A stretch of 46,824 bases of DNA from a virus, in the IMG/VR virus record IMGVR_UViG_3300020156_000003, positions 1 to 46,824 of that record, one strand, 5' to 3'. Both the position numbers and the translations under genes were made by a program. The notes beneath the pieces were generated by a model. It did not search any database and was not told the origin of the DNA. It was given only the letters and a program-made list of their open reading frames with translations. This document shows, one piece after another, positions 10,555-14,294 of the stretch (its first letter is position 1; each line of letters opens with the position of its first letter).

Positions 10555-10764
10555 CTATCGCACGTCAGCGGTGAAGCCCATCGGCGTTTCTTCGTCCTCG
10601 CCTGCTTCCTCCTGGCCGCCAAAGCCAGGCATGAACATCGGATGCGCCTGCGGTGGGGGTTGCAGAACGAGCAGGGCCAAAAGCGCGAGCGGGTTTTGCA
10701 GGACGACCATGCACACGATGACGGCGGCGATGATCAGGACGTTGACGGCGAGGGTGGGATTCAT
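10555..10764 (-). CDS. Single-pass membrane protein, 69 aa
   Basis: The product has one long hydrophobic segment, TLAVNVLIIAAVIVCMVVLQ, continuing through LALLALLVL, then a proline-rich and acidic tail (EEAGEDEETPMGF). The hydrophobic run could span twice as a hairpin or once. It is a separate leftward unit, bounded by the terminator at 10505-10528. AAGTCAGTAGTGAGG, a degenerate dyad, lies just upstream (10778). Holin-like architecture is possible but not supported by neighbours. Confidence 0.55.
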   Translation of the reverse strand: MNPTLAVNVLIIAAVIVCMVVLQNPLALLALLVLQPPPQAHPMFMPGFGGQEEAGEDEETPMGFTADVR

Positions 10765-10950: not shown

Positions 10951-11126
10951 GGCACGCGCAATTTGCGTGTGTCCCGAATCTAGCGTCCACGATGAGATAA
11001 GAAGACTTCACATCAGGAAGTCTTTGCTGGAACGTCTTTATCGAAAACTCTTAATTGAGTTAGGACGAGTTTTGATACTTAGGTGCGGATCGCTAAATTT
11101 TTTTTTACTTGAAGAAAGGTAAGTCG

Positions 11127-11303
11127 ATGATTTATAAGATTTTGTGTGGTTCCACCACTCTGGAAGCTTCGGATAAGTTTGAAACTAAGCTCCAAATTGA
11201 CCCCAAGGTCGTCGCCAATCACTTGAAGGCGCTATATGAGGGGGCGGGAATCGAAGTTATGGGTGTGGTGCAGATGTCAGAGTTTGAAATCGACATCCAT
11301 TAG
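11127..11303 (+). CDS. Small protein flanking the LuxR gene, paralogue 1
   Basis: The 58-residue product starts at ATG 11127 behind AAGAAAGGTAAG. It is clearly related to the 60-aa product at 12339: both begin MI[YF]K[IV]LC, share LYEG followed by [IV]EV[MI]GVV, and end SE-x-x-IDIH. Its third-position AT content is higher than the paralogue's. Together they bracket the LuxR-type gene, which lies on the other strand. A strong terminator follows. No family is recognised; the size suits a modulator peptide, but that is inference. Confidence 0.7.
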   Translation: MIYKILCGSTTLEASDKFETKLQIDPKVVANHLKALYEGAGIEVMGVVQMSEFEIDIH

Positions 11304-11312
11304 CGCAAGCAA

Positions 11313-11333
11313 GGGGCCAATCGGCCCCTTTTT
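11313..11333 (+). terminator. Intrinsic terminator
   Basis: GGGGCC-AATC-GGCCCC followed by TTTTT, 10 bp after the stop of the gene at 11127. It also separates that gene from the convergent LuxR-type gene. Confidence 0.85.
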
Positions 11334-11341
11334 GTTGGCCG

Positions 11342-12067
11342 CTACTGAAGCAGTCCGAGCCGATACGCGAAGAAGGCGGTCGGATAGATGCCGGCGCGGT
11401 CGAATTGCGGCGGCAGGGTGCGCTGCATGTACTTGATCCGCGACGCCTTAATCCCCATGATGGTGGCAATCACGTCAGAAGTCTTGCCATCCAATACCCA
11501 CCGCAGATACTGGCGCTCCTGGGCGTTCAACTCGATGAAGAACTGCGGCAGGTTCTTCCGCAACAGACGCAACTCCATTGCCTCGACCACCGCCTGAATC
11601 AACGCGTGCGTCTTGTGTCTGACCTGCCAGCCGTCGTCAGGATTCCGCGACAGACCGACCATTGCCGTGGTGCCGCCCCGACCATCAATTACCTCCAGCC
11701 ATTTCAGGTGTACGCCGGCCGCGCGCGCCTCGCGCAGAAAGTCGCGGCGCGTCCAATAGTAGTCGCTGCCGCCAGCGACCGGCGCGCTGATGCGCTTGCC
11801 GTAGCAGACCTTGGAGCCGTGGTTTGTGGCTGACGGGTTCAGGAACTTTTCTTGCCAGTCGTCCCTGAAGTTACAGAAGAAGGAAAAGTGCGGCTCGGCC
11901 AAGGATGACGGGTACTCCAGCCCGTAGGCGACATAGCGATAGCCAAGCGCATTGGCAAGCGAAACGAATTTGCGAAAGACTTCGCTCTCATGTTCAACCG
12001 CCAGCTCCCGGCAGCAGTCGTCCTCCCACTGCTCCACGCTGGCTTCAAATGAATCTGTGCTGCACAT
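11342..12067 (-). CDS. LuxR-type autoinducer-receptor transcription factor
   Basis: The 241-residue product (from ATG 12067; a GTG 12 bp upstream is possible, but GGAG fits the ATG) has the two-domain plan and length of quorum-sensing receptors. The N-terminal half has ANALGYRYVAYGLEY, a Trp in DDWQEKFLNP, a second aromatic SDYYWTRRDF, and VIDGRGGTTAMVGLSR, as in acyl-homoserine-lactone binding domains. The C-terminus is a LuxR HTH: LNAQERQYLRWVLDGKTSDV, then IMGIKASRIKYMQRTL and YRLGLL. The Asp-Pro usually contacting the ligand amide appears replaced (NHGS), so ligand preference may be unusual. No LuxI-type synthase is visible. It would let the phage sense host or community density; function is inferred from family. 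Confidence 0.85.
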   Translation of the reverse strand: MCSTDSFEASVEQWEDDCCRELAVEHESEVFRKFVSLANALGYRYVAYGLEYPSSLAEPHFSFFCNFRDDWQEKFLNPSATNHGSKVCYGKRISAPVAGGSDYYWTRRDFLREARAAGVHLKWLEVIDGRGGTTAMVGLSRNPDDGWQVRHKTHALIQAVVEAMELRLLRKNLPQFFIELNAQERQYLRWVLDGKTSDVIATIMGIKASRIKYMQRTLPPQFDRAGIYPTAFFAYRLGLLQ

Positions 12068-12075
12068 ACCACGCT

Positions 12076-12119
12076 CCACGCGAACTGTCTACAGCACCTT
12101 TGTGCTTTGATCCGCGTGG
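12076..12119 (-). promoter_or_regulatory. Nested inverted repeat in the luxR-type leader
   Basis: Outer arms CCACGCG (12076-12082) and CGCGTGG (12113-12119) enclose AGCAC-CTTT-GTGCT (12093-12106). It lies just upstream of the GGAG and ATG at 12067. A TATAGC -10-like box on the minus strand is near 12130. It could be an operator or an RNA stem controlling translation. Confidence 0.5.
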
Positions 12120-12338
12120 CGTCTTGCTATAGAGTTCGCACCTGCTTTCATTTCTCCGATGCAACACATTCTGGCATACGTCGAATGGGAATGGCAGGGA
12201 GAAGGCGTTTAGCGCAAGGAAATACCGTTCTGGTGTGAGAAATCACCAACAAAGTTCTCTTTGATGCCGCTGTCATGGAGGTCAACTGCCTGGCAGGTCG
12301 ACCGCGGCTCCATTTTTCATCACTACAAAGGAAGGATC

Positions 12339-12521
12339 ATGATTTTCAAAGTGCTATGTGCGCAGCAAAACGGAGAGGTCAGGGCGGACAGGTTCGAGAC
12401 GCAGCATCTTCTCAGCAACCCGCGCCATATTGCCGACCGCATCCGGCAACTGTACGAAGGTTCGGATGTGGAAGTCATCGGCGTTGTGCGCGTGTCCGAA
12501 GTGGACATCGACATTCACTGA
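12339..12521 (+). CDS. Small protein flanking the LuxR gene, paralogue 2
   Basis: The 60-residue product begins at ATG 12339 behind AAAGGAAGG. It aligns along its length with the 58-aa product at 11127: MIFKVLC, a variable middle, DRFET, IRQLYEGSDVEVIGVV and the identical end IDIH. A GC-rich hairpin follows the stop. The surrounding gap (12120-12338) has a small hairpin (TGGTG/CACCA) but no clear promoter. Its function is unknown; shared synteny with the receptor is the only clue. Confidence 0.7.
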   Translation: MIFKVLCAQQNGEVRADRFETQHLLSNPRHIADRIRQLYEGSDVEVIGVVRVSEVDIDIH

Positions 12522-12551: not shown

Positions 12552-14294
12552 TTACGCCGCCAGCGTCGCGCGCGCAAACCCCAACTGTTCCATGTCGAAG
12601 TCCCGGCCGCCTTCGTAGATGAAGCGGTCAAATCCCGGTGTACCCTTGATGATCGCCTGACGCTGCTTGGCGTGCGTGACCAAATGGTCATTGAATGCGT
12701 CGGCAAAGTCGATGATGAAGCACAGGTTTGGCATTCCATTCTTCTTTTCGCGCAGCCCGCGACCGATGCGCTGGCGCAGCGCGACCTCGGCCTTCCCGCC
12801 GCCGGCCAGAATCACGTAGCCGACCGCCGGCACGTCCACGCCCACGTCAAGAATGGTGGTGCCGATCAGGACGTCAATGTCGCCGCGCGCCAGGCGTCCC
12901 AACGCGCGCTTACGGCCCTCCTGGTCATCCTCACCCTGGATGAACTCCACCCGCAGACCGGCTTCGGCGATCGCCTTTTTCAGCTTGTCACCGTGCGCAG
13001 TCTGCTGCACCAGGATCATGCCGTTTAGGCCGTAGCGTGACATGCGCACGCATTCCTCGACGATCAGTCCGTTGCGGTAGTCGTTGTCCACGATCCCCAG
13101 GCGGTACGCGGCCTGCCAGCCAGTGCCGCGCATGAGCTTTTGCGGCTTGAACTTGAGTGGCACGAACTTGAAATGCGGCTGCGCCAGGATGCCGCGGTCG
13201 ATCAGGGTTTCCTCGCTGACCTTGATGGCGATCGGCCCCGCGCACGCCATCAGGCGCATGTTCGATTCCTCGTTCTCCTTCATGAACGGGGTGGCGGTGA
13301 GCGCCAGGCGGTAGTGCGCGTTCTTGCAGTGGCGCAGGATCTCGTAGTAGCTGTTGCCGGACGCTTCGTGCGCTTCCTCCAGGATCACCAGCCCAAACAT
13401 GGACAGCAACTGGATGGTGCGAGCGCGGTCGCGCATGTGCTCCGCGACTTTCACCGCGGCTTCCGCGCGCATCTTGCCCACTAGCGCCTTGCGTTGGGCG
13501 ACCTGGCGCGCGTCAAGCGCTTCGAGCTGGCGCTTGCGCTCGGCCGGTTTGACGCCGGCGGCCAAAAGCCGATTCTCCAGCGCCCTGTGTTCCTTCAGCT
13601 CGGCCTTGACGCGGGCGTCCGTCATTTTGTCCAGCTCGCCGTCGATCGTCTTTTCCTCCAGGCGCGAGATCAAGGTCTGCACCATGCCCACGCACATTTT
13701 CTTGACCGCTTGCCGCGTGTTCCCGTGCTCGTCAACGATGGTGTGACCGAATTGGCCGTCGCCCAGCACCGATACGGGCACCCCGAGGTCTTTCTCGAAC
13801 GCGTCTTTCATCTGGTACATCAGAATGCCGCGCGTGGTCAGAAACAGCGTGGGCATGTTGATCGAGGCGAAGGCCATGCGGGCGATGCGGCTCTTGCCGC
13901 CGCCGGTGGCAACCTGCGCGATGATCGCGCCGTGCTTGCGCAGCCGACGGATGACCTCCGGCTGGTAGTCGTAGCGACCCTCGTAGCCGAAGCTGTCGAT
14001 CACCGGCAGCTCCGGCCCCTGCGGCTCGGGCAGCGGCTTGCGCGCCAGGCGTACTTCGTAGCCCTTGTGCCGCAGCTTGGCGGCGACGAAATGCACGAAG
14101 CCGGCGGGGAAGGTGCCAAGCTTGAAATCCAGGAAGGAGCTGCGGCCATCCCAATTGCCGCGCTTGAAGGCAATAGTGTGCTCGGCGCCATCCACCGCAT
14201 ACGACAGGATGGACTGGACTTCAAGCTTCACGTCTCGCGTCGGCTCATGGAGCTTGGCGACGGTGGCGTTGGAGGCGATGGTGACGACGGTCAT
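12552..14294 (-). CDS. SF2 DEAD/DEAH-box helicase (UvsW-like)
   Basis: The 580-residue protein carries the SF2 set in order: motif I QVATGGGKSR (about residue 127), motif II LEEAHEA (about 305), motif III LTATPF (about 332) and motif VI QRIGRGLR (508-515). A ~85-residue charged, probably coiled-coil insertion (about 211-296) separates motifs Ia and II. Phage helicases of this type (T4 UvsW is the model) unwind branched DNA in recombination and replication. The Walker B core is EEAH rather than DEAH. Start ATG 14294 is preferred over TTG 14306 because the promoter at 14354-14326 leaves a ~25-nt leader; no good ribosome site is seen for either. Confidence 0.88.
   Translation of the reverse strand: MTVVTIASNATVAKLHEPTRDVKLEVQSILSYAVDGAEHTIAFKRGNWDGRSSFLDFKLGTFPAGFVHFVAAKLRHKGYEVRLARKPLPEPQGPELPVIDSFGYEGRYDYQPEVIRRLRKHGAIIAQVATGGGKSRIARMAFASINMPTLFLTTRGILMYQMKDAFEKDLGVPVSVLGDGQFGHTIVDEHGNTRQAVKKMCVGMVQTLISRLEEKTIDGELDKMTDARVKAELKEHRALENRLLAAGVKPAERKRQLEALDARQVAQRKALVGKMRAEAAVKVAEHMRDRARTIQLLSMFGLVILEEAHEASGNSYYEILRHCKNAHYRLALTATPFMKENEESNMRLMACAGPIAIKVSEETLIDRGILAQPHFKFVPLKFKPQKLMRGTGWQAAYRLGIVDNDYRNGLIVEECVRMSRYGLNGMILVQQTAHGDKLKKAIAEAGLRVEFIQGEDDQEGRKRALGRLARGDIDVLIGTTILDVGVDVPAVGYVILAGGGKAEVALRQRIGRGLREKKNGMPNLCFIIDFADAFNDHLVTHAKQRQAIIKGTPGFDRFIYEGGRDFDMEQLGFARATLAA

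Follow-up and report, generated by a model that had tools for sequence, protein, structure and literature searches.

A divergent LuxR-type gene with a replaced acyl-homoserine lactone pocket motif on a phage record

The window analysed here (46,824 nucleotides, positions 1 to 46,824 of the IMG/VR virus record IMGVR_UViG_3300020156_000003) is part of a 110,824-bp record, labelled linear, that we call G000. Its luxR-type gene lies in a variable slot between two phage-native genes, one for a small protein (g027) and one for a DNA helicase. In relatives the helicase adjoins g027, with only small ORFs between them; in the window the gap is filled by luxR and two paralogous small ORFs of 58 and 60 aa. 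The features of the slot are as follows:

10555..10764, minus strand: g027, a small protein of 69 aa; left-hand border of the slot and native to the phage, with homologues in the related loci L010, L011 and others
11127..11303, plus strand: small ORF g028, 58 aa; convergent with luxR and 47% identical to g030
11311..11330, plus strand: terminator-like perfect 8-bp GC-rich stem and T run, between g028 and luxR
11342..12067, minus strand: luxR-type regulator gene, 241 aa; Autoind_bind domain at about aa 27-163 (divergent) and LuxR HTH at about aa 180-241
12068..12338, no strand: 271-bp divergent intergenic region common to luxR (minus) and g030 (plus)
about 12066-12130: hairpin or dyad immediately 5′ of the luxR start codon; DNA fold z -3.7, RNA fold z -2.1, the dyad not significant against shuffles
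12339..12521, plus strand: small ORF g030, 60 aa; divergent from luxR, paralogue of g028, smORF-like, candidate target
12552..14294, minus strand: phrog_16 DNA helicase; right-hand border of the slot and native to the phage, with homologues in SSU5-like phage-plasmids

The luxR ORF runs on the minus strand from an ATG at 12067 to a stop at 11342 (241 codons), with a Shine-Dalgarno-like GGAG 6 nt 5′ of the ATG; an in-frame GTG at 12079 is an alternative start that would give 245 aa. Among Pfam models the product matches Autoind_bind (PF03472) above the cut-off (E 1.1e-7; 31.9 bits, cut-off 23) and GerE (PF00196) below it (E 0.0011; 19.0 bits, cut-off 23.5), the latter over profile positions 3-36 of 57 only, so that specific DNA binding is not assured. 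The conserved LuxR HTH residues E184, L188 and G194 are retained. In phmmer searches of PDB, residues 12-240 matched a designed RhlR (E 9e-15), 14-240 the natural RhlR (E 2e-10) and 25-240 QscR (E 6e-14); the acyl-homoserine lactone (AHL) receptors of the RhlR/AbaR/QscR type have full-length, two-domain homology with the window protein. These end-to-end matches confirm a full-length LuxR-family protein; this and its phage-borne location are as claimed in an earlier note on this DNA. NCBIfam and PHROGs gave no over-threshold assignment. At 106 bits (Autoind_bind) and 54.8 bits (GerE), the receptor of phage phiARM81ld scores far above the window LuxR, which is therefore a very divergent member of the family. 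Its AlphaFold model, built on a three-sequence alignment, reached a pLDDT of 44.7, too poor for a fold search or a judgement of the pocket.

Judging by its packaging and helicase genes and its size, G000 is related to the SSU5/AB_1-type phage-plasmids, with which it has terminase, portal, helicase and ParB-like genes and a length of ~110 kb in common. Neither a ParA nor a replication initiator gene was identified on it. The TerL protein is 73% identical to that of Acinetobacter phage-plasmids, with 977 matching plasmid records, and the helicase matches those of SSU5 and of Klebsiella, Pseudomonas syringae and Rhizobium phages. G000 also encodes a tyrosine integrase (64849-66015; phrog_1, E 4e-33) and an XRE-type gene (66679-67137; HTH matches weak). 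Counting G000, the integrase is found in 15 of 19 records and the XRE-type gene in 18, and the two together support a temperate phage. Phage-plasmids are described as typically integrase-free (PMC12977533), whereas G000 and 14 of the 18 relatives searched have an integrase. CobT- and CobS-like genes and a B12-type ribonucleotide reductase were observed at 67777-71188 and 89496-91982 of G000.

No LuxI gene (PF00765) was found anywhere on the 110,824-bp record, which widens the earlier observation that no synthase was in view, nor was one found in a set of 20 records comprising G000, its LuxR-bearing relatives G007 and G047 (described below) and others. The same model detects LuxI in a Paracoccus genome, so the search works. 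With no cognate LuxI gene on its replicon, the window protein is a LuxR solo.

Only a small number of LuxR receptors from phages have been studied, in linear plasmid-like Aeromonas phages and in Roseobacter prophages. Roseophage CRP-810 carries a gene reported as ‘LuxR’ (PMC11288001). Three LuxR matches in phage databases look like host DNA because of their synthase or host-type neighbour genes, and were rejected as phage LuxRs. The ‘sdiA’ of Acinetobacter phage MD-2021a (two records, one of them CAKLQH020000009, L002) adjoins a LuxI-type synthase and acyl-CoA, peptide synthase and metabolic genes, and in Pseudomonas phage Y5 (OQ572407, L003) a gene identical to RhlR lies within a glycosyltransferase-RhlR-synthase stretch.

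The pocket motif WYDPWG reads WFGSGK in the window LuxR (W71, F75, G84, S85, G99 and K122), with one of six residues kept; F67 and L111 occupy additional pocket positions. A 44-residue gapless alignment with RhlR sets G84-S85 opposite RhlR D81-P82. The replacement of Asp-Pro by NHGS that the earlier note had pointed out is therefore real, and part of a wider loss than it described. All six motif positions, and likewise RhlR Y64 and W108, are invariant in 22 of 22 LuxR relatives, a set made up of the G007 protein, six proteins from named records and 15 genome loci from the order searched, which we take to be Burkholderiales from the taxonomy of Parasutterella (L093). The divergent proteins of phiARM81ld and G047 (Magnetospirillum) also have the complete motif. 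When a column is called conserved if at least 21 of the 22 relatives have the same residue, the window LuxR keeps 20 of 43 conserved columns, and for relatives scored alike the figures are 39 to 43 kept out of 43 to 48. Pocket positions are kept at 1/8 or 1/9, against 10/17 or 10/18 in the rest of the domain (one-sided p 0.05 to 0.02), an enrichment of losses that is suggestive only, since p is 0.17 with the six motif residues alone.

With nearly all pocket residues lost, the window LuxR is probably not eavesdropping in the usual way. The residues speak against the usual AHL chemistry and give no support to the earlier label of ‘quorum-sensing receptor’ if AHL sensing is meant. A true eavesdropper of another kind must still be weighed: the remodelled pocket would bind a host signal, be it an atypical AHL or some other small molecule, and switch lysis-lysogeny at high host density, like the phiARM81ld LuxR. 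Phage LuxRs with such a job exist (PMC6456758, PMC10432266, PMC9894119). The fold of the ligand-binding domain is kept by sequence, as is the equivalent of Trp68, and the plasmid-phage context, the divergent small ORF and the presence of another LuxR of the group inside a lysogeny module (G007) fit this explanation. Several of the pocket substitutions shrink side chains (Trp to Gly or Leu, Asp to Gly), so that a larger or different ligand would fit as well as no ligand, and an altered ligand range is possible. However, five of six pocket residues are gone, though the motif is complete in other divergent phage LuxRs. PluR and PauR, LuxR solos for signals other than AHLs, also have a changed WYDPWG motif, but they keep its Tyr and Asp where the window LuxR has Phe and Gly, and replacing this Asp strongly impairs sensing even in them (PMC4414361). 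On balance we consider an eavesdropper unlikely, if still a serious contender. Action without ligand is possible as well: F67 falls at the position of RhlR Y64, and the Y64F change alone gives RhlR 37-fold ligand-free activity (PMC6564026).

The second concentration of losses is in the DNA-binding domain, where the recognition helix keeps none of seven conserved positions and the first half of the HTH keeps 7/8 (p 0.0014). Compared with RhlR, AbaR and QscR, then, the window LuxR differs at five of the six pocket residues and at the recognition-helix positions. A protein with its scaffold retained and its ligand- and DNA-contact positions lost could be a decoy, forming dead heterodimers with LuxR-type receptors of the host and so damping host quorum sensing. 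Interference of this sort is known for LuxR proteins, with TrlR acting on TraR and QscR on LasR and RhlR, and for one phage protein, Aqs1, acting on LasR (PMC13043044), so that interference with host LuxR proteins is a possible activity. TrlR, however, has no HTH, whereas the window LuxR keeps most of the first HTH half, and identities of ~25-30% imply a long divergence that lowers the chance of its pairing with receptors of the host. We judge a decoy improbable.

Extreme divergence is also what a captured gene would show if it were decaying, or of little use and drifting in a variable slot. The branch leading to the window LuxR in the tree is saturated: it carries 7.5-10 changes per column where the median is 0.66, too many for the protein's origin to be placed exactly. 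Its nearest relatives are Burkholderiales LuxR proteins at 25-30% identity, with matches concentrated in this order rather than spread over the phylum at large. Searches of phage, plasmid and viral sequences, of genomes and of the phylum gave no close homologue, and the gene is missing from the 49 relatives searched, two unrelated LuxRs elsewhere excepted. These points fit decay, but the ORF is an intact 241 codons; its GC3 (0.78) is phage-like, five of six tested phage genes having 0.78-0.88; and in neutral simulations an ORF stays stop-free at such divergence with P < 0.2%. The composition and the open frame argue against a pseudogene and for constraint at the protein level. The losses are moreover heaviest in the pocket and recognition helix, not evenly spread, and decay or drift seems very improbable to us. 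An assembly error may instead have placed luxR in the record, although both its GC3 and its phage-native flanking genes speak against this.

LuxR-type genes were sought with PF03472 in the 49 related records, which vary in completeness. Two more were found, both elsewhere than the helicase slot. In G007 (IMGVR_UViG_3300012001_000006; 81 kb) a single ORF (L102:9584-10705) encodes a DUF4902-Autoind_bind-GerE fusion with intact pocket, between an XRE-type gene and an integrase; DUF4902 is also annotated beside LuxR in other loci compared. When viral contigs were scanned by alignment, this LuxR was the only match. In G047, a Magnetospirillum molischianum DSM 120 contig of 112-113 kb from the same phage group, the fusion (L096:1057-2400) is of Trans_reg_C, an OmpR-type winged helix, with Autoind_bind; the pocket is again intact, and the C-terminal GerE region is not recognised by Pfam. 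No LuxI was found in the M. molischianum DSM 120 genome. Both records, like the window, have an Autoind_bind protein on a related phage and no LuxI, but theirs are fusions with intact pockets. The occurrence of LuxR-type genes elsewhere in two other records of the group indicates that acquisition recurred, and three LuxR layouts in the 50 records searched point to separate acquisitions. At the terminase, luxR was found in 0/80 related viral loci.

The arrangement around luxR resembles lysis modules known from experiments. In these circuits of plasmid-like phages a transcription factor switches on a smORF of opposite orientation, and the smORF product inactivates a repressor; the version in Aeromonas phage combines LuxR, XRE and C4-HSL (PMC10432266; PMC9894119). 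The window has the same TF-smORF layout, with luxR (minus) and g030 (plus) counter-oriented and 271 bp apart on a plasmid-like phage. As in phiARM81ld/Apop, a LuxR without LuxI is found on a plasmid-like temperate phage with a counter-oriented ORF of ~60 aa adjoining it. The two systems differ in several ways. The phiARM81ld LuxR is ~23% identical to that of the window, keeps WYDPWG and binds C4-HSL; it requires an XRE partner encoded in its own operon, and none lies beside the window luxR; and its 59-aa ORF, p38, has no similarity to g030. A role for the window LuxR in steering lysis-lysogeny, as the earlier note raised, might be proposed by analogy with phiARM81ld.

The small ORFs belong to a family of 58-67-aa proteins found beside the helicase, sometimes in two copies, in the window, in L011 (1591-1788 and 2381-2581) and in L019 (710-904). 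The matches to L011 and L019, which have no luxR, are marginal (E 0.02-0.05), and they suggest that the small ORFs need no LuxR; they also weaken the idea that g028 and g030 arrived with luxR as its partners. Searched against the phage collection, g030 had no match.

Candidate DNA elements were also evaluated. Lux-box-like dyads near luxR and g028 were no better than shuffles, and no significant operator dyad was found. The hairpin at 12066-12130 may represent an operator or, alternatively, an RNA element. A 13-nt direct repeat bracketing luxR is at about chance expectation, and Rfam gave no matches over 10.4-14.5 kb. A perfect 8-7-8 dyad, AAGACTTC..GAAGTCTT (11002-11024), precedes a promoter-like site that lies in front of g028 and is not repeated in the window.

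The pocket losses and the Phe at the RhlR Y64 position, taken with the TF-smORF layout, the absence of an operon XRE, the lack of similarity to p38 and the occurrence of similar small ORFs without luxR, favour a regulator of nearby genes that works by something other than ordinary AHL chemistry. This LuxR-derived regulator is our preferred explanation, held tentatively. The gene would be a single addition to a temperate SSU5/AB_1-like phage or phage-plasmid, presumably descended from a bacterial receptor of RhlR/AbaR type, closest in Burkholderiales, with the overall scaffold kept. It would subsequently have lost its AHL-holding residues and changed its DNA-reading helix. Its likeliest mode of action would be to fold and work with no conventional AHL, whether free of ligand or bound to some other small molecule, and to regulate nearby phage genes, first of all the divergent 60-aa g030, and so influence the lysogeny programme. 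The data show membership of the family, an intact frame, a phage context with a temperate gene set, no LuxI, and loss of residues in the pocket and the recognition helix; we infer the missing AHL response, the target genes and the effect on lysogeny.

LuxR-type genes are now placed on another large group of phages. It is conceivable, and we offer this more cautiously than the preferred reading of the window gene, that LuxRs on SSU5-like phages can abandon AHL sensing in the course of evolution, becoming either receptors of other signals or regulators that need no ligand, and in either form govern neighbouring small phage ORFs and the choice of lysogeny. A luxR that has lost the AHL motif and is yet open would allow testing of whether phages keep LuxR for uses beyond hearing the AHLs of their hosts.
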